Source: Thermacetogenium phaeum DSM 12270 (lineage in GTDB: Bacteria; Bacillota; DSM-12270; Thermacetogeniales; Thermacetogeniaceae). Taken from it: a stretch of DNA of 64,000 nucleotides. The stretch spans positions 2,694,501-2,758,500 of the forward strand of contig NC_018870.1 of NCBI RefSeq assembly GCF_000305935.1, given 5' to 3'. The position numbers and the translations under genes were made by a program. How positions within the stretch are numbered: position 1 is the first letter of the stretch; each line of letters begins with the position of its first letter. The notes beneath the pieces were generated by a model. The model was not told the origin of the DNA. It did not search any database and was given only the letters and a program-made list of their open reading frames with translations. Below are positions 51,997-62,268 of this stretch, piece after piece.

Positions 51997-52297
51997 GCAT
52001 CCTCCGGCACGAGGCAGTAAACGCAGCCGCGTCCTGCTGGTTGACTTCCTTGACGTTTAATCCACTGCGGTTTTAGTAGATTCAGCAATTCTACCGGAGA
52101 GGGCTCATTCCCAGTCTCCCCAGCATAGCTGCACGGTTCGCCCCTGCCATCCTCAGTTTTAAAGCGCCCACGGCACCATTCTCTACCGATTCTACTGCCC
52201 GGCGATAGAGGCGGCGGACTACTCAATATCGAAAAAATTGATTCCGAGGAAGGAATTCTTGTGAAGCTGGCGAATTATTTTTTCTATATTAATTCAA
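51997..52297. other. Gap between the MFS gene and the Moco riboswitch
   Basis: 301 bp; presumably holds the fdhA operon promoter. No gene or clear promoter pair recognised. Confidence 0.35.
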
Positions 52298-52395
52298 TTC
52301 TCCGAGTTCACCGTCCTGTGGCAGTTTGCTATGGCGGTCGAACCGATAGGGTGTACCTGGAAACGGGTGCGCCTCCCAGTGCGGAAAGGAGACTA
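52298..52395 (+). ncRNA. Moco-family riboswitch upstream of formate dehydrogenase
   Basis: Conserved order: TCTCCGAG (P1 left), GCTATGG, CCTGGAAACGGG, GCGCCTCCC, GCGGAAAGGAGA (P1 right). The pair GCCTCCC...GGAAAGG and CTCC/GGAG closing match the molybdenum-cofactor RNA upstream of E. coli moaA and the second copy at 61565-61675. Binds Moco or the tungsten cofactor; the terminator downstream at 52415 is its likely expression platform. Confidence 0.85.
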
Positions 52396-52414
52396 CGGCA
52401 AAAGCGTTCGCTCG

Positions 52415-52446
52415 CCGGGGTGCGATTTCCGCACCCCGGTTTTTTT
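52415..52446 (+). terminator. Riboswitch-linked terminator
   Basis: CCGGGGTGCG, ATTTC, CGCACCCCGG, TTTTTTT. 20 nt after the Moco aptamer. Confidence 0.92.
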
Positions 52447-52633
52447 AATCGCCGCATAATTAGGGGGGCTCGATGTCCAACCGGGTCAGTGCCATTATCT
52501 TGCCAGGTCGTCTCCGGGGCAACCGTCCCGGCAGTCGCTGCGGCGGCGGGAGCGCCGGGTTTATCCGGAGGCAGGTGCACCTTTAAGTGAAAAAACAGCT
52601 TTCCCGTGTTCTCACATTCCTTTTCCCATACTT

Positions 52634-52684
52634 GGGTTGTCTTTCCTTCTGGGCGGAAGGAAAGACAACCCGGGAACTTTTTTT
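52634..52684 (+). terminator. Second terminator in the fdhA leader
   Basis: 16-bp perfect stem GGGTTGTCTTTCCTTC / GAAGGAAAGACAACCC, 6-nt loop, then GGGAACTTTTTTT. Intrinsic terminator 190 nt after the first and still 570 nt before fdhA. Confidence 0.85.
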
Positions 52685-52903
52685 GCCTGATACGGTCGAG
52701 AGATCTCTGCGATTTGAGAAAGCCGGAGTTGCACTTTTCCCGATAAACTCGATCAGAGCCCGATACCCTTACCGCTTGCGGCAACACCATCAGAATGACG
52801 TCAATACAGGGTGGAGTCAGGTTGTACGGGGTTGCTTGGGAACCGGCTTTAGACAATTCCAGCAATCCTCTGAAATCAGGCCTCCAACATCTATCTTCAG
52901 GGC

Positions 52904-53170
52904 AGACCCTCACGCCGCCTCTGGCGGCACCAACAGAGGAACGAAAAAAGGGTTTATCCTTGCCGGCGCAGCGACCTGACGGAGGTTGTTACTCGCCCTT
53001 GACGAAGGAGCAGCAAACGGCAGCCGAATCGAGACAGGATGTCGAGATAGGCGACTCTGCGCCAGGGAAGGCGCATAGGAGCCGGTCGGCTGCCGTCTGC
53101 GACAAGTCTTAGGGCGAGTTAAACCGGAGTCCGGGAGCAAGCGCAAGGATAAACCGAAAGGTATTTTCAT
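52904..53170 (+). repeat. Leader-type repeat, copy E (subtype II, best preserved)
   Basis: Begins AGACCCTCACGCCGCC-TCT-GGCGGCACCAACAGAG; nested stems GTTTATCCTTGC/GCAAGGATAAAC, ACTCGCCCT/AGGGCGAGT, ACGGCAGCCGA/TCGGCTGCCGT, hairpins GACAGGATGTC and TGCGCCAGGGAAGGCGCA; ends GGTATTTTC. Lies 82 nt before the fdhA start. Confidence 0.88.
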
Positions 53171-53251: not shown

Positions 53252-55936
53252 ATGGAACTCGTCAAGCTAACCATAGACGGAAAGGAGGTTCAAGTTCCGG
53301 CAGGGATCACGGTCCTGGAGGCGGCGGAACGAGCGGGGATCCACATCCCCCGGCTCTGCCACGATCCGGACCTGACGCCCGTAGGGGCCTGCCGCCTCTG
53401 CGTGGTGGAGATCGAAGGGATGCGGAACCTCCCGGCATCCTGCGTCACCGTGGTAAGCGAGGGAATGGTTGTACGCACCGCCACACCGGCGGTCATCGAG
53501 GCGCGCCAAACCATCCTGGAGCTGTTAATTGCCAACCACCCCCTGGACTGCCTCACCTGCGAGAAACTGGGGGACTGCCAGCTGGCGGAATACTGCTACC
53601 GCTACGGTGTCACCCAAAGCCCCTTTATCGGCGGTGAAAAACATAACTACGAATTGGAGGAGAGCAACCCCTTCATCATCCGGGACTTAAACAAGTGCAT
53701 CCTCTGCGGCAGGTGCATCAGGGCCTGCGCCGAGATTACCTGCAAGGACATCATCGACTTTTCCTATCGCGGCTTTAATACCAAGGTGACGCCGTTCGGC
53801 GATACCCCCTTAATCGAATCCGACTGCGTTTACTGCGGGAACTGCGTGTCGGTCTGCCCTACCGGAGCCCTGACAGAGAAACAGATGCGGGGGCGGGGCC
53901 GGAGATGGGAATACAAGAGGGTGAGGACCACCTGCCCCTTCTGCGGCACCGGCTGCAACTTCGACCTCCTGGTCAAGGATGGGAAGATCGCCGGGGTGGC
54001 TTCCAATCCGGACAGCCCGGTCAACGGGAAGGCGCTCTGCATCAAGGGCCGTTTCGGTTGGGATTTCGTTCACAGCGACAAGCGCCTGAAAACCCCGCTC
54101 ATTAAGAAAAACGGGGAGTTCGTGCCTGTTAGCTGGGATGAAGCCTTCACCACCATCTCTGAGCGTTTGAAGGAAATTAAAGAGAAATACGGGGCCAACT
54201 CTTTTGCTGCATTGAGTTCCGCCAGGTGCACCAATGAAGAAAACTACCTGGTTCAGAAGTTCGTCAGGGCGGTGATGGGCACCAACAACGTCGACCACTG
54301 TGCCCGCACCTGACACGCGCCCACAGTGGCCGGTCTGGCCACTTCCTTTGGCAGCGGCGCAATGACCAACTCCATCAACGAAATTCTGGAGGCCGAACTA
54401 TTATTCCTGATCGGAACCAACACCACCGAAGCGCATCCCGTTATCGGCTATAAGATGAAACAGGCGAAGAGGAAGGGCGCCAAACTGATCGTCGTCGACC
54501 CGCGGCGCACCGAACTGGCAGAAGAGGCCGATTACTGGCTGCGCCTCAAACCGGGTACGGACATCCCGCTCCTGAACGGCATCATGCACGTCATCATCAA
54601 AGAGGGGCTCTACGACCGGAAGTTCATTGAAGAGCGAACGGAGAACTTCGAGGCCCTCAGGGAGACCGTCGAGAAATATACGCCGGAATACGTTTCCGAA
54701 CTCACCGGTGTGCCGGTGGAGGATATCACTGCGGTGGCCCGCCTCTACGCTACCACCGACAAGGCCGGGATCTTCTATACCCTGGGGATCACCGAGCATG
54801 TCTGCGGCACCAGCAATGTGATGAGCATTGCCAACCTGGCCATGCTGACCGGGCACATCGGCCGCCCCGGCACAGGCGTCAATCCCCTGCGCGGGCAGAA
54901 CAACGTTCAGGGAGCCTGCGATATGGGCGCCCTCCCCAACGTTTACCCCGGTTACCAGAAGGTCACCGACCCGTCGGTGCGGGAGAAGTTTGAAAAGGCC
55001 TGGGGGGTTTCCCTGCCTCCGGATGTCGGCCTGATGATCCCGGAGATGTTCGATAAGGCCAATTCCGGTGAAATCAAGGCCATGTACATTCTGGGGGAAA
55101 ACCCGGTCCTGACCGACCCCAACGCCAACCATATTAAATCCGGCCTGGAGAAACTGGAATTCCTGGTGGTGCATGAGCTCTTCCTGACGGAAACCGCAGC
55201 CTATGCCGATGTGATCCTGCCTGCGGCAAGCTTTGCGGAGACCGACGGGACGTTCACCAACACCGAGCGCCGCGTCCAGCGCGTCCGTAAAGCCATCGAA
55301 CCGCTCCCCGGGCGCACCAACTGGCAGACGATCATGGAATTGAGCACCAGAATGGGCTATCCCATGAACTACAACAGCGCCGAGGAGATCTTCAAGGAAA
55401 TGGCCTCCCTGACCCCGTCCTACGCCTGGATCAGCTATTCCCGAATCGAGAAGGAAGGGCTCCAGTGGCCGTGCCCGACCGCCGACCACCCGGGAACCAG
55501 ATACCTGCATGCAGCAACCTTTACCCGGGGCAAAGGGCTCTTCCAGGGGATCGACCATGTGCCTCCGGCGGAATTGCCGGATCACGAGTACCCCTTCCTC
55601 CTCTCCACCGGAAGGATCCTTTTCCACTACAACGTCACCACCCCGTACTCGGCAGGCATCCAGAGCATGTGGTCGGAGGAGTACGCGGAGGTCAACCCCG
55701 ATGATGCCTCCCGCCTCAAGCTGGCTACAGGGGACAGGGTAAAGGTGACCTCCAGGCGCGGCCAGCTCGTTACCAGGGTTCAGGTGACCGACCGGGTGCC
55801 GCCCGGTATCATCTGGATGTCGTTCCACTATGCAGACAGCCCCACCAACGTCCTGACAAGTGACGCCGTCGACCCGGTCACCAAAACCGGAGAATATAAA
55901 GTATGTGCGGTGAGAGTGGAGAAGCTGAATCAGTAA
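53252..55936 (+). CDS. fdhA: Formate dehydrogenase catalytic subunit, selenocysteine-containing
   Basis: 894 aa if TGA at 54311 is read as selenocysteine (residue 354). NuoG-like N-terminus: 2Fe-2S ligands Cys36, 47, 50, 64 (CHDPDLTPVGACRLC...SC), then HPLDCLTCEKLGDC, two 4Fe-4S sites (CILCGRCIRACAEITC; CVYCGNCVSVCPTGA), and the molybdopterin-domain cluster CPFCGTGC. The Sec lies in the context CAR-T-U-HAPTVAGLA, where the Mo/W ligand sits in formate dehydrogenases. Size and layout match the NAD(P)-linked tungsten-selenium enzyme of Moorella. It reduces CO2 to formate or oxidises formate. ATG 53252 has AAAGGAG 8 nt upstream. No partner flavin subunit follows; two MoeA-type genes do. Confidence 0.95.
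54311..54342 (+). promoter_or_regulatory. In-frame TGA and SECIS hairpin
   Basis: TGA at 54311-54313, then 18 nt, then apical loop GGTCT (54332-54336) on stem GTGGCC/GGCCAC (54326-54331, 54337-54342). The loop sequence and the 18-nt distance are the same as in E. coli fdhF. Reading continues in the same frame to 55936. Confidence 0.93.
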
Positions 55937-55955: not shown

Positions 55956-56984
55956 ATGCAGAAAGTTCCTGTGAACAAGGCAGTAGGGATGATCCTCTGC
56001 CACGACCTGACAAAGATCGTTCCCGGCAGGGAAAAGACCCGGGCCTTCCGAAGGGGGCATATCATCACTCCCGCCGACATCCCTGCCCTTCTGGATATGG
56101 GGAAGAAGCATATCTACGTCTGGGATCCGGGGGCAGGCCTCGTCCACGAGGATGAGGCCGCCATCCGGCTCGCCCGGAGTGCCGCCGGGCCGGGGGTCAC
56201 CTGGGGGGAACCCAACCAGGGGAAGGTGACTTTGAAAGCAGCTCACGACGGCATTTTGAAAGTCCGGTTGGAGCAGCTCAACCGGGTGAACAGCCTGGAG
56301 AAGATCTCCCTGGCCACCCTTCATAACAACCGGCCGGTTGCTGCAGGGCAGCCCGTCGCCGGCACCCGGGTGATCCCTCTGGCCATCGAAAATGAGATCC
56401 TGGTAGAGGCGGAAAGGCACTGCGGCAGCCCTTCTCCTCTCCTGACAGTTTTACCTTTCCGGCCCCTCTGGGTGGGAGTTGTCACCACCGGAACAGAGGT
56501 TTATGAAGGCCGCATCCGGGACGGTTTCTGCAGTATTGTCAGACGCAAAACCGCCCCCTTCGGTGCCAGAATGCTCGGCCAGGTGATCGTCCCCGACGAT
56601 CCGGACTGCATCTCCCGGGAGATTCTCCAGATGATCGGGGAGGGTGCGGAACTGGTGCTGGTAACCGGAGGGATGTCTGTGGACCCGGATGACGTCACAC
56701 CGGCGGGGATCAGGGGAACAGGAGCCCAGGTGGTCACCTACGGCGCTCCCGTGCTCCCCGGGTCCATGTTCATGCTGGCCTATCTGGGGCACGTGCCCGT
56801 CGTGGGGCTGCCGGGGTGCGTCATGTTCAACAAAACCACCATCTTCGACCTCGTCCTGCCGCGGCTCTTCGCCGGCGACCGGATAACCAGGGAGGATATT
56901 GTCGCCCTCGGTCACGGCGGTCTCTGCGCCGAGTGCGAAGCATGCCACTACCCGCACTGCTCCTTCGGGAAAAGCGCCTGGTAA
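55956..56984 (+). CDS. Molybdopterin-binding protein with cysteine-rich tail (MoeA-like)
   Basis: 342 aa. The central part WVGVVTTGTEVYEGRI ... ELVLVTGGMSVDPDDVTPAGIR ... PVVGLPGCVMFNKTTIFDLVLPRLFAG is the MoeA/MogA molybdopterin-binding fold. It lacks the long N-terminal MoeA domain of the next gene. The last residues hold CAECEACHYPHCSFG, a compact Cys/His cluster that could bind a metal. 20 nt after fdhA and probably dedicated to it: metal insertion or cofactor delivery. Confidence 0.85.
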   Translation: MQKVPVNKAVGMILCHDLTKIVPGREKTRAFRRGHIITPADIPALLDMGKKHIYVWDPGAGLVHEDEAAIRLARSAAGPGVTWGEPNQGKVTLKAAHDGILKVRLEQLNRVNSLEKISLATLHNNRPVAAGQPVAGTRVIPLAIENEILVEAERHCGSPSPLLTVLPFRPLWVGVVTTGTEVYEGRIRDGFCSIVRRKTAPFGARMLGQVIVPDDPDCISREILQMIGEGAELVLVTGGMSVDPDDVTPAGIRGTGAQVVTYGAPVLPGSMFMLAYLGHVPVVGLPGCVMFNKTTIFDLVLPRLFAGDRITREDIVALGHGGLCAECEACHYPHCSFGKSAW

Positions 56985-57041
56985 ACGGTGACAGATTCTC
57001 CGTTGAGCTAAGCAAGATTTCAAGGAATGGGGATTTTGAAA

Positions 57042-58235
57042 ATGAAAAGTTGTTTGCCCCTGGAGGACTCCCAGGAGCTCCTCCTGAGTTCGATAAAACC
57101 CCTGCTAAGCGAGACGATCACCCTAGAGGAAGCACCGGGGCGGGTTCTTGCCGCAGATATCTTTGCTCCTCACGATCTTCCCCCTTACCCCCAGGCGGCC
57201 CTGGACGGGTTTGCCATCCCTCGCGAGGGGAAGAGAGGGAGCCCCCTTTCCGTGAAGAGAATCCTGGGGGCAGGGGATCTCCCCGGTCACCCTCTAGGCC
57301 CCGGGGAGGCAGCAGGTGTCCTCACAGGGGGGCATATTCCACCCGGTACCGCGGCGGTCGTCCGCCAGGAAGATGCCATGGTGAAGGACGGCATCCTGAC
57401 CATTGATAAGGATCTAACCGTCGGGGAAAACATCAGGGATCAGGGAGAGGACTTCCCGGCCGGAGCGGTGATCGCCCGGCGCGGCACAAGGATCACCCCC
57501 GGTTTGAGCGCCGTGCTGGCGGCCTTCGGGTTTCAGGAAATCAGCGTCTTCCGCCGTCCCAGGGTGGCGATTGTAAACCTGGGGAAAGAGATCGCACCTC
57601 ACCAGGCCACCCCCCTCCCCGGCCAGGTCCGGGACAGCAACGGCCCCCTGCTGGCCGCTTTGACCCGCCGCACCGGTGGTCAGGTCGTCGCTATCCATTA
57701 CGCCCGCACGAAGACCGAAAAGCAGATCGGGGAACTGCTGATGGAAGCGGACGTGGTGCTGACCATCGGGGGAACGGCTTCGGGCAACAACGACCCGGGG
57801 CACCATTTCATAGAAAGGGTGGGAGGGCGCCCGCTCTTCGCGGGGTATCAGGTTAAACCGGGAAGCCACACCTCTGCCGGTATTCTCGACGGCAGGATTA
57901 TCCTGATGCTGTCGGGTAACCCGGTGCCCTGTGCCGTCGGCTACCACCTCCTGGCCGCCCCGGTGCTGCGCGCCCTGCAGGGGCTTAACCCCTACCTGCA
58001 CCGCATTCCTGCAGTCGCCACCAATTCCTTCCCTAAAAGGGGAGGGCCGCGGCGCTTCCTGTTGGGGTACGCTCTCGGCAGCCATCAGGGGTGGAGGGTA
58101 GCCGTGCTTCCCTTTCAAAAACCCAGCAATCTCCACTCCCTTATCGATTACAACTGCCTCATCGACCTTCCGGCGGGACACCCGCCGCTGCAATTGGGTG
58201 ATGAGGTGAAGATCATTCTCCTGGAAAACGCCTGA
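57042..58235 (+). CDS. moeA: Molybdopterin molybdenumtransferase MoeA
   Basis: About 397 aa. N-terminal region ITLEEAPGRVLAADIFAPHDLPPYPQ; the catalytic loop reads AALDGFAIP rather than the usual S-x-M/V-D-G-Y/F-A. Then GGHIPPGTAAVVRQED, GENIRDQGEDFPAGAVIARRG, RDSNGPLLAAL, LTIGGTASGNNDPG and LSGNPVPCAVGYHLL. It inserts molybdate or tungstate into adenylated molybdopterin. ATG 57027 is also possible but its Shine-Dalgarno touches it. Third gene after fdhA. Confidence 0.9.
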   Translation: MKSCLPLEDSQELLLSSIKPLLSETITLEEAPGRVLAADIFAPHDLPPYPQAALDGFAIPREGKRGSPLSVKRILGAGDLPGHPLGPGEAAGVLTGGHIPPGTAAVVRQEDAMVKDGILTIDKDLTVGENIRDQGEDFPAGAVIARRGTRITPGLSAVLAAFGFQEISVFRRPRVAIVNLGKEIAPHQATPLPGQVRDSNGPLLAALTRRTGGQVVAIHYARTKTEKQIGELLMEADVVLTIGGTASGNNDPGHHFIERVGGRPLFAGYQVKPGSHTSAGILDGRIILMLSGNPVPCAVGYHLLAAPVLRALQGLNPYLHRIPAVATNSFPKRGGPRRFLLGYALGSHQGWRVAVLPFQKPSNLHSLIDYNCLIDLPAGHPPLQLGDEVKIILLENA

Positions 58236-58617
58236 TGCCATCCTGTTGTGCGGGGCTATCGGGCGGATGTTGAATGGTCGCAGGAAATAACCCAGAGAAT
58301 GCTTCCTGTTTTGCCGGTACCCACCTAGCGGTATGGGCATCTGACCTGAATATCAGGATTCTAAACCGGAAGAATACCATGAGCCAGCAGGCAAGAGCGC
58401 CCTGAGCCGGCCTTGACGAACCTGGTGCTCGCCCGGACCGGCGCTTTAATAACGGGAACCGGGTGGCAGAGATCGAGAACTTTCCTGTTCAGGATGGAAG
58501 CCAGCGGGGTAATTGGACAGCAATTTTAACTGGCGGGAATAGATTCTGGAAAGAAGGAGACAGGATGTCTCCTTCCATCTGTCGAAAAGAATAACAGAAA
58601 ACTTAGGAGAAGAAATC
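58236..58617. other. Leader region of the MOT1-type gene
   Basis: 382 bp without a gene. A perfect 10-bp hairpin, GAAGGAGACA (58553-58562) / TGTCTCCTTC (58566-58575), lies 43 nt before the start codon. No Moco riboswitch pattern (no CCTCCC...GGAAAGG) found here. Confidence 0.45.
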
Positions 58618-59783
58618 ATGGCCACCAACAAAGAGAGCCTCACAGAAGCAGCCGAAAAACAACGGGAAAACCCGGAACAGAAGAGCTTCCTGGGAGAACT
58701 TTCGGGAGCAATGGGTGACCTGGGCACTTTCCTCCCCCATGTGCTCGGAGCCATCTCCGTTGCCGGGCTCAACCCCGCCAGCATCTTCACCGGATTCGGG
58801 CTCTTCTATCTCTTTTGCGGCTGGTATTACAGGATTCCCATGGCGGTTCAGCCCATGAAGGCGGCTTCGGCGGCCGTCCTGGTGCAAAAGCTGACTCCCG
58901 GGGAGGTGGCGGCGGCCGGGCTGATGATCGGTCTGCTGCTGTTTCTCCTGGGCGTTACCGGTCTCATCGACAGAATCGCCCGGATCACCCCTCCGGGGGT
59001 CATCGGGGGGATTCAGGTAGGGTTGGGGCTTTCCCTGGCGACCCTCGGGATCAAGATGGTCGCTGCCGATCCCTTATTGGGCTGGCCGGTGCTGATCATG
59101 ATGCTGCCCCTCCTCAGCAGCAGACGCTTCCCCGCCGCCATTATGGCAGTTCTGGTGGGAACGGCACTCAACGTGATACTCCACCCCGGCCTCGACCTGC
59201 CCCGGATCGCCTTCGGGGTGCACCTGCCCTCCATCATCTGGCCTGCAGCCGCCGATTTCCAGAAGAGCCTTTTCATGGTCGTCCTGCCCCAGCTCCCCCT
59301 CACACTGACAAACGCAGTCCTGGTGACGACCGCCCTCACCGCGGAACTCTACGGCAGCAAAGCCCGCCGGGTGAATGACAGAAATCTCTGCCTGACGATG
59401 GGGCTGGGCAACCTCCTGGCAGCGCCCTTTGGAGGGTACATGATGTGCCACGGGAGCGGGGGGGTGGCCGCCCACTACCGCTTCGGCGGCAGGACAAAGC
59501 ACACCCCTTACATCATCGGCATCATCCTGCTGGTGGTGGGGCTGCTGTTGGGAGGCAACGGAGCCAAAGTCCTGTCCCTGATCCCCGATGCCGCCCTGGG
59601 CTGTCTCCTTTTTACAGCGGTCTCGACCTCGCCCTGGCAGCCAGAGGGGGCACCGGGTGCCGGGAGGACTTTTTCCTCATCCTGGCCGTGGCCGCCCTTG
59701 CCCTGGCGATCAATCCCGCCGTCGCCTTCATCGCCGGAATAGCGCTGGGCAAGGGATTGGAGAAGAAGTGGTTCCGCATCTAA
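58618..59783 (+). pseudogene. MOT1-type molybdate/sulfate permease with one-base frameshift
   Basis: The protein begins normally: LSGAMGDLGTFLPHVLGAIS, FGLFYLFCGWYYRIPMAVQPMKA, GGIQVGLGLSLATLGIKM, HGSGGVAAHYRFGGRTKH. These are signatures of MOT1 high-affinity molybdate transporters, with about ten helices. Near 59613-59617 (CTCCTTTTTACAGC) the frame shifts: adding one T gives ALGCLLFYSGLDLALAARGG and a good last helix (LILAVAALALAINPAVAFIAG) to 59783. As written, the frame ends at 59742 in unrelated residues. A real mutation or a homopolymer sequencing error. Confidence 0.85.
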
Positions 59784-60539: not shown

Positions 60540-61232
60540 TTATCCGAGTTTGGATTCATCCAGATGGAGCAGGATGCTGCTGACAATAAAGGAAAGGGCG
60601 AGCAGAACGCCCCCCAGAGCAACGGCGAACTCGAAGTTGCCCTGCCTGGTCTCCAGCACGATGGAGGTGGTCAGAACTCGGGTATAATAGCGGATGTTGC
60701 CGCCTACCAGCATCACCGCCCCCACTTCCCCAAAAGCCCTGCCGAACCCCGTCATAATACCGGCAATAATCCCGGAGCGCGCCTCCTTAATCACCATCCA
60801 GGCGGCCTGCCGCCGGCTGGCTCCCAGCGACCTGGCCGTATCCATGGCCAGTTTCTCCTTGGCGGCAACTGCCGCTGCCGAGATGCCGGCGATAATCGGC
60901 GTAGCCAGAAGCACCTGGGCGACGATCATGGCCGCCGGTGTGAAAAGAATGTCCAGAAAACCCAAGGGGCCGTTCCGGCAAAAGACCATGTAGACCACCA
61001 GCCCGGCTAGAACCGGGGGAAGGCTCATCAAGGTATAGATCAAGCGCAGCAGCAGCTTCCTCCCGGGAAACCTCTTCAGCCCCAGCAACGCCCCTAGCGG
61101 TACCCCGATCAGCGCCCCGATGACAACCGCGCTTCCGGAAACAGCCAGGGAAAGGCCGACAATGCCGGTGAATTCATCCCCCAGGGAGGTAAAAAACTGC
61201 CAGATCGAAGAGAGTAAACCGTTATCTGTCAT
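60540..61232 (-). CDS. tupB: ABC transporter permease, tungstate/molybdate type
   Basis: 230 aa with about six helices. The EAA loop is ARSLGASRRQAAWMVIKEARSGIIAG; FGRAFGEVGAVMLVGGNI is characteristic of TupB/ModB-type permeases. First gene after the riboswitch; no substrate-binding gene (tupA/modA) is present between riboswitch and tupB or after tupC. A 264-nt leader (61233-61496) separates it from the riboswitch terminator. Confidence 0.85.
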   Translation of the reverse strand: MTDNGLLSSIWQFFTSLGDEFTGIVGLSLAVSGSAVVIGALIGVPLGALLGLKRFPGRKLLLRLIYTLMSLPPVLAGLVVYMVFCRNGPLGFLDILFTPAAMIVAQVLLATPIIAGISAAAVAAKEKLAMDTARSLGASRRQAAWMVIKEARSGIIAGIMTGFGRAFGEVGAVMLVGGNIRYYTRVLTTSIVLETRQGNFEFAVALGGVLLALSFIVSSILLHLDESKLG

Positions 61233-61496
61233 CTTATCACCGAAGTTCTGACAAAAGTTTTGGCAATCAGCAAATGTGTCCCATCAAATGTCGAAGGCCG
61301 AAACCTTGCAGGTACTTGCCCTTGTTGGTTGCCGCCTCCCCTTGCTTCCGGCGTTCTTCAATGCTGGCGAGCAGCGACCAACCACGGAAGGGCAGGGCCA
61401 CGATGGGCCGGACCCGGGAGCTCAAAGCGAAAAGAACAAGAACAAAGCGCCTTTGCTATCCTGCGGAGGCAGCGCCCCCTGCGGCCGCTTCCTGCC
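61233..61496 (-). other. Leader between riboswitch terminator and tupB
   Basis: 264 nt, GC-rich, with possible stem GTTGGT/ACCAAC around 61325-61385. Open frames on either strand have no family similarity. I see no remnant of a substrate-binding protein. Confidence 0.4.
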
Positions 61497-61548
61497 CAAA
61501 AGAAAACGCCTGAACTAAGCTTAATCGAAAAACCGCTTCAGTTCAGGC
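61497..61548 (-). terminator. Terminator of the tupB riboswitch
   Basis: Minus strand GCCTGAACT (61548-61540) pairs with AGTTCAGGC (61516-61508), followed by GTTTTCTTTTGG. 17 nt past the aptamer. Confidence 0.85.
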
Positions 61549-61564
61549 TTTGCATCCCACGATA

Positions 61565-61675
61565 AGATCTCTCCTTTCCAAACACGGGAGGCAAGGCGGT
61601 TTCCCGTCCTGCCCAGCGGCCAAAGACCATAGCCGGAGAGCCGGCCTCAGGCCTTTTGGCTCGGAGAAAAGATCC
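61565..61675 (-). ncRNA. Moco-family riboswitch upstream of tupBC
   Basis: Minus strand order: GATCTTTTCTCCGAGCC, CCGGCTCTCCGGCTATGG, TCTTTGGCCGCTGGGCAGG, ACGGGAAACCG, CTTGCCTCCCG, TTTGGAAAGGAGAGATC. P1 closes between GATCTTTTCTCC and GGAGAGATC. The blocks GCCTCCCG...GGAAAGG are the Moco RNA hallmark. Long peripheral arm kept, as in classic Moco RNAs. Confidence 0.92.
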
Positions 61676-61771
61676 CATTTTTTATTATTCTTTTAAGATC
61701 TTCGTGACTTAACCGGCAAAATCCTTCCCTGTGCGACTAATTGTGCCGCTTTCCACCTGACACTGCGGAGC

Positions 61772-61801
61772 AAAAAACCCGGGCAACAGGCTCCCGGGTT
61801 T
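61772..61801 (-). terminator. Terminator of the ATP synthase operon
   Basis: Minus strand AAACCCGGG, 9-nt loop, CCCGGGTTTTTT, 27 nt after the atpC stop. Confidence 0.92.
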
Positions 61802-61827
61802 CCGGTAACGGCCGTCAGATATCTCCT

Positions 61828-62268
61828 TCATTTAACCATTTTGCCCGCCGCTTCGGCAGCCTTCAACCGGGCGAGGGACCTGCGCAGGGCCAGCTCTGCC
61901 CGGAGAACATCCAGACCTTCCGCTTTCTCCCGGAGGCGTTTCTCCGCCCGCTGTCGCGCCTGCTTTGCCCTTTCCACGTCAATCCTCTCCCCCCGCTCTG
62001 CAGTATCTGGGAGGATGCGCAGGACGTTGCCGCTCATCTCGAAAACCCCCATACCGCAGGCGACATAATGGGGCTGCCCCTCTTTGACGTATTTGATCAC
62101 ACCGATATCCAGCCCGCCGATAATAGGGGCGTGATTGCGCAAGATGCCCAGCAGGCCGTCCTGCGAAGGGATGACCACTCCTTCCACATCCTCTTCGACG
62201 ACAACCCGCTCGGGGGTAACGATCTCCAACCGAAAGGTTTTCCCTTTTTCCTTAGCCTGTTCCGCCAC
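61828..62268 (-). CDS. atpC: ATP synthase epsilon subunit
   Basis: 146 aa. FRLEIVTPERVVVEEDVEGVVIPSQDGLLGILRNHAP is the N-terminal beta-barrel; the C-terminal helical hairpin is RAKQARQRAEKRLREKAEG and LALRRSLARLKAAEA. Rotor-stalk subunit that can inhibit ATP hydrolysis. Begins one base after the atpD stop. Confidence 0.96.
   Translation of the reverse strand: MAEQAKEKGKTFRLEIVTPERVVVEEDVEGVVIPSQDGLLGILRNHAPIIGGLDIGVIKYVKEGQPHYVACGMGVFEMSGNVLRILPDTAERGERIDVERAKQARQRAEKRLREKAEGLDVLRAELALRRSLARLKAAEAAGKMVK

Follow-up and report, generated by a model that had tools for sequence, protein, structure and literature searches.

Riboswitches of the Moco/Tuco family have already been described ahead of tungstate transporters in the accessible text of two papers (PMC2408646; PMC9971707), and a riboswitch before such a transporter is in itself an ordinary element of a known kind. 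The accessible part of PMC2408646 reports RNAs of this family that lack the P3 stem in 19 organisms, 17 of them with genes for the tungsten cofactor (Tuco), and proposes that these P3-less RNAs sense Tuco. The same text gives at least 15 copies of RF01055 for S. wolfei and 8 for D. hafniense. The locus considered here lies in a window, the whole stretch of 64,000 nucleotides of Thermacetogenium phaeum DNA that was analysed, and positions below are counted from its first letter unless a genome coordinate is given.

A preliminary description of this DNA had placed a Moco-family riboswitch on the minus strand and named an Rfam search as a check. That search (cmscan of the window) bore the claim out: RF01055 matched at 61678-61555(-) with 80.1 bits against a gathering score of 36 (E 8.4e-18), and the match covers the model end to end (1-135). 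The aptamer comprises P1, P2 with a tetraloop receptor, P4 with a GAAA loop, and P5. No P3 stem lies between P2 and P4, which places the RNA in the P3-less (Tuco) subtype. The strands of the closing stem P1 sit where the description had put them, at 61674-61663 (GATCTTTTCTCC) and 61574-61566 (GGAGAGATC); read by eye, the pairing is UCUCC/GGAGA and GAUC/GAUC, interrupted by a 3-nt bulge. The aptamer fold had a z score of -3.0, and none of 200 shuffles equalled it. Model R1 scored it at 90.0 bits, with this aptamer itself among the 22 sequences on which R1 was trained.

The expression platform downstream of the aptamer is an intrinsic terminator (61548-61498, minus strand). Its position had been predicted correctly as 17 nt past the motif: the hairpin GCCTGAACT...AGTTCAGGC occupies 61548-61508, the T-rich tail reaches 61498, and the spacer between the end of P1 (61566) and the terminator (61548) is exactly 17 nt (61565-61549). 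The hairpin folds at -19.6 kcal/mol (z -5.1), and 0 of 200 shuffles did as well. Because the T tract is interrupted (GTTTTCTTTT), we rate the tupBC terminator as moderate. The consensus terminator scan missed this hairpin, which we attribute to the scan's loop limit of 3-8 nt. The outer stem, GCCTGAAC/GTTCAGGC, is constant in four members (the tupBC copy and its counterparts in relatives G005, G007 and G016), while the inner stem and loop vary among them. A second candidate terminator between 61490 and 61440 was rejected, as its fold (z 0.15) was no better than those of shuffled sequences.

Both genes claimed to lie behind the riboswitch are there and on its strand. tupB (61232-60540) starts 265 nt beyond the terminator, and tupC (60520-59780, start set by eye) comes next. 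TupB is a tungstate-type ABC permease (NF038017 ABC_perm1, PF00528) that scored 251.5 bits with NF038017, over the cut-off of 100, and 153.2 bits with the TupB model NF041773, under the cut-off of 320. TupC, an ABC ATPase (PF00005), reached 154.3 bits with the TupC model NF041774 (cut-off 400), and it was not the ATPase model with the highest score. The genome's own TupA stayed under its NCBIfam equivalog cut-off as well (229.5 bits, cut-off 400) and matched the TupA structures 3lr1 (E 7.7e-61) and 5my5 (E 7e-60). Since all three proteins fall under the equivalog cut-offs, the Tup name rests on homology, the TupA structures and the gene order in relatives. tupA does not adjoin tupBC; it sits about 0.6 Mb away on the circular genome, where a separate P3-less riboswitch (L009), immediately followed by a terminator, precedes it. 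Adjoining tupCB, the stretch 55956-59742(+) encodes a molybdopterin-binding protein, MoeA and a MOT1-type molybdate transporter, forming a Mo/W gene cluster.

The tupBC copy had been called the second Moco-family riboswitch. Another copy in the window does precede fdhA, but the genome (one contig of 2,939,057 bases) holds 12 RF01055 matches, not two. Four have P3 and eight are without it. The P3-containing copies stand before mobA-mobB-moeA (L002), an xdhC cluster (L003), an ABC/molybdopterin-oxidoreductase cluster (L006) and moeA-moeA-moaA (L011), the last being assigned from the length and sequence of its insert. The P3-less copies precede tupBC, fdhA, tupA, the molybdate-type modABC (L001), a sigma-54 activator gene (L005), an NAD-type aldehyde dehydrogenase gene (L008) and a NiFeSe hydrogenase gene (L010, locus L019); the eighth, L012, has no clear gene following. 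A broken modA upstream of modBC was suspected and refuted, modA being intact in another frame. NiFeSe hydrogenase uses no molybdopterin, and the enzyme behind L010 is perhaps a stand-in switched on when the cofactor is short. L012 (locus L021, G000:C1:341221-341344(-) in the genome) has a SigH-type promoter and a terminator, with no clear gene on its own strand, and faces the 3' end of a helicase-like ORF. L005 and L008 are divergent and back to back (G000:C1:2190043-2190580), and the aldehyde dehydrogenase behind L008 is possibly a tungsten-free substitute for AOR. Six aldehyde:ferredoxin oxidoreductase genes were found in the genome, two of them scoring equally, and their order and spacing agree with T. 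phaeum locus tags; the accessible text of PMC6436200 gives six such tags, two of them reported to be identical.

The other copy in the window is a P3-less aptamer at 52288-52407(+) (RF01055, 68.6 bits), so that fdhA does lie behind a Moco-family riboswitch, as proposed. The terminator of this copy (52414-52448(+), fold z -5.2) contains, in its loop and 3' arm, TTTCCGCAC, which is complementary to GTGCGGAAA of the aptamer. fdhA, encoding formate dehydrogenase, occupies 53252-55936(+), with an in-frame TGA (54314-54316) that is probably a selenocysteine codon. Directly after the terminator stands a 37-codon ORF with a good ribosome site (52464-52577(+)), either a small gene or a remnant, and then a second strong terminator-like hairpin (about 52631-52686, z -6.7) between riboswitch and gene. 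RF01731 (TwoAYGGAY) also matched in this leader (52977-53132(+), 46.2 bits); with 9 matches in the genome, 3 of them over the cut-off, it is a dispersed element, and CsrA or a second regulator acting through it was rejected. Among 14 fdhA-type loci from relatives, 10 had a riboswitch in the upstream stretch that was fetched. The association with fdhA is therefore real and conserved, although in the window the second hairpin intervenes. The preliminary description saw a simple feedback loop in this pair of genes. Negative feedback fits tup import, but it does not by itself explain fdhA, which would be shut off when its own cofactor is plentiful. The gene is most likely Tph_c27290, for which the accessible portions of two papers report a low level on acetate and a higher one in syntrophic growth on ethanol or ethanolamine (PMC6895022; PMC6436200).

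When the TupB loci of relatives were scanned with Rfam, a riboswitch was found in the fetched stretch at 14 of 29. Among the five same-family genomes with TupB 75-80% identical, in three (G005, G007, G016) it immediately precedes tupB, and there was no riboswitch match at tupB in G006 and G017 (79-80% identical). A search of 11 genomes for TupA located it in 7, and five of these seven loci have a riboswitch directly upstream; the remaining two are G034, where tupA follows tupBC, and G011, which gave a 26-bit match. In the named collection, 34 of 80 tupB loci had a riboswitch upstream, a count that includes 11 loci with less than 1.3 kb of upstream sequence and that may be too low for P3-containing copies, since the model used was trained on P3-less sequences. 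tupA intervenes in 17 of the 34 and not in the other 17. Judged from printed Rfam alignments where shown and otherwise from the sequences by eye, 22 are P3-less and 12 P3-containing, and all 12 reach the Rfam cut-off.

Several arrangements in this collection stand apart. In L107 the copy ahead of tupBC contains P3 and the one ahead of tupA does not, and in L093 a riboswitch occurs only between tupC and tupA. L073 (a Syntrophomonas sp. MAG) surrounds a single tup operon with four copies, including a tandem pair upstream of tupA. The foot of P4, otherwise nearly invariant as CCUCCC, reads CCCCCC in L088, L069, L085, L125, L116, L086, L107 and L121 (P3-containing) and in L140 and L142 (P3-less). 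The G partner there reads C or A, i.e., G-U is replaced by C-C or A-C, and 10 of 10 carriers are tup-linked. We rejected this change as the mark of a third specificity class of P3-containing tup copies, since L140 and L142 are P3-less tupA copies.

Our explanation of the locus as a whole, to which we give a probability of about 0.7, is that a P3-less Moco/Tuco-family riboswitch shuts down tupBC by acting on transcription elongation. The transcript would begin just upstream of the aptamer, probably at a SigH-type promoter. Plentiful tungsten cofactor would bind the aptamer and hold P1 and P5, the terminator at 61548-61498 would form, and tupBC would go untranscribed. With the cofactor scarce, the 3' part of the aptamer (UUGGAAAG) would instead pair with the terminator loop (UUUUUCGA), so that the terminator would fail and permease and ATPase would be made. 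tupA would be controlled in parallel through its own riboswitch copy elsewhere. The OFF direction is likely, and it agrees with the fact that P1 and the terminator can be present in one transcript together.

The antiterminator is a candidate, weak for tupBC itself and better supported across the genome's copies, many of which have a terminator loop complementary to the 3' end of the aptamer. By eye, TTTTTCTAC in L002 is complementary to GTAGAAAAA. The same holds for TCCTTTACA and TGTAAAGGA in L006, where aptamer and loop both depart from the common GGAAAGG. A terminator fits the 3' end of the aptamer in its own leader better than the 3' ends of other aptamers, with a permutation p of 0.004 for 11 copies of this genome and 0.006 over all 21 copies; within the four tupBC leaders p was 0.25, and after removal of those four it was 0.052. 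The tupBC match exceeded that of every one of the 19 control terminators (p 0.05, the lowest value attainable) with the tupBC hairpin entered by hand, the automatic search having picked another. These run-length and permutation tests omitted L001, which is without a platform terminator, and L036, L041, L043 and L049, which have no clear platform hairpin. They replaced a duplex-energy shuffle test of low power on GC-rich arms, in which tupBC gave p 0.74 and 3 of 17 loci fell below 0.05. Transcripts of G005 and G016 that end before the terminator 3' arm fold into an antiterminator using the 3' strand of P1. No antiterminator was seen in the truncated transcripts of G007 or of the window's tupBC, and the latter retained P1 in the MFE fold.

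A weak antiterminator and an interrupted T tract in the tupBC copy, together with tupB lacking a riboswitch match in two same-family relatives, would also suit a decayed or ligand-independent leader, in which the terminator is constitutive and a different promoter, within the 265 nt ahead of tupB, serves tupBC. However, the aptamer is full-length, the outer stem is kept in four members whose inner stems and loops differ, and no sigma-70 site was found within 61200-61860, and we consider decay improbable. Direction is a separate matter. Ligand binding that prevented termination would be sensible for fdhA, a consumer of the cofactor, but P1 and the terminator stand 17 nt apart without overlap and could form together, and in many copies the terminator loop has complementarity to the very aptamer 3' strand that the ligand would sequester. 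An ON switch is thus very improbable.

The preferred OFF switch leaves a choice of ligand. The fdhA and tupBC copies, described as wired to the same ligand, both belong to RF01055, but the P3-less form makes Tuco likelier than Moco. For the tupBC aptamer, Tuco is the better guess because the copy lacks P3 and controls tungstate-type genes. The same switch might respond to Moco, or to Moco and Tuco alike, if the absence of P3 sets no metal specificity. A rule that pairs P3-less copies only with tungsten genes and P3 only with Mo genes fails at 12 of the 34 tupB loci elsewhere, where other lineages have P3 in the riboswitch upstream of tupB. It holds broadly in T. phaeum, with the P3-less copy before modABC as the exception, and is therefore not strict. 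Moreover, according to the accessible text of PMC2408646, the E. coli RNA lost regulation on removal of P3 and did not switch its specificity. Against a Moco ligand, the genome's own four P3-containing copies all precede Moco/MPT-type genes, both tup units are P3-less, and that text finds Tuco genes in 17 of 19 organisms with P3-less RNAs. We regard Moco, alone or alongside Tuco, as possible but unlikely for tupBC. With its eight P3-less and four P3-containing copies, this genome is a good natural test of whether P3 sets the choice of metal, and the 12 tupB loci of other genomes whose riboswitch contains P3 speak directly against that idea.

Upstream of the tupBC aptamer lies a SigH-type promoter-like site, AGGATTTT-N13-CGAAGAT (61725-61698, minus strand), and the fdhA riboswitch has one at 52251-52275(+), both found by pattern match. 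SigH is a transition-phase sigma factor, and the genome has a sigH gene (373 bits, cut-off 294.8). The pattern, AGGAWTT, 11-15 nt, nGAA, is what we take to be the B. subtilis SigH consensus, and it was picked after the upstream sequences had been seen, so the SigH figures given here are not blind tests. It occurs within about 90 nt upstream of four of the eight P3-less copies in this genome, tupBC and fdhA among them, and the tupA copy is a fifth by a relaxed pattern; upstream of the P3-containing copies it was found at 0 of 4. In relatives it accompanies 9 of 14 tup copies and 5 of 5 same-family tupA copies, and it is rarer at distant named loci (4 of 27 P3-less, 2 of 12 P3-containing). Four sites within 90 nt upstream of 12 riboswitches compare with 0.013 expected by chance. 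Of random 102-nt windows, 0.45% matched the pattern, and of AT-matched ones 2.0% (139/6874). Genome-wide, a related pattern gave 69 matches versus 17 for the reversed control. Among 17 control leaders of the same genome (T-box and cobalamin), 1 had a SigH-type and 11 a SigA-type site, and at the Moco-family copies a SigA-type promoter was found in 0 of 12.

Judging by these motifs, SigH may use the predicted promoters that carry the pattern. We found no earlier report of a SigH link in the mainly non-subscription literature, including the accessible parts of PMC12674515, PMC5651825 and PMC13396061, and the association of SigH-type promoters with Moco/Tuco riboswitches may be new. We tentatively propose, with some doubt, that the tungsten-cofactor regulon of this bacterial family is under two locks, with a split transporter gated by two aptamers. 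The SigH-type promoter would set when the leader is made and the P3-less riboswitch would set read-through, with the binding protein and the permease/ATPase gated separately by their two aptamers. If this holds up, the novelty lies in the type of promoter and in the division of the transporter. SigH-type promoters, if real, would link the control of growth phase with tungsten metabolism, here in an acetogen that runs its main pathway in reverse.

Comparison with known systems places the locus as follows. It resembles the TupABC tungstate transporter of structures 3lr1 and 5my5 in that its own TupA matches both, and differs in that TupA, TupB and TupC are below the equivalog cut-offs. The riboswitch-tupBCA operons of Syntrophomonas (L055, S. 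wolfei subsp. methylbutyratica; L052, S. palmitatica) likewise have a P3-less riboswitch directly before tupB and then tupC, but in them tupBC is followed on its own strand by tupA, whereas the tupA of T. phaeum is about 0.6 Mb distant. With the Moco RNA of Regulski (RF01055), in its P3-less type, our copy has in common the aptamer architecture, the GAAA tetraloop and the terminator-type platform, as well as the links to transporters and cofactor-using enzymes and the many copies per genome. Unlike the Regulski systems, T. phaeum has tupBC and tupA unlinked, each with its own riboswitch copy, and several of its copies have SigH-type promoters.
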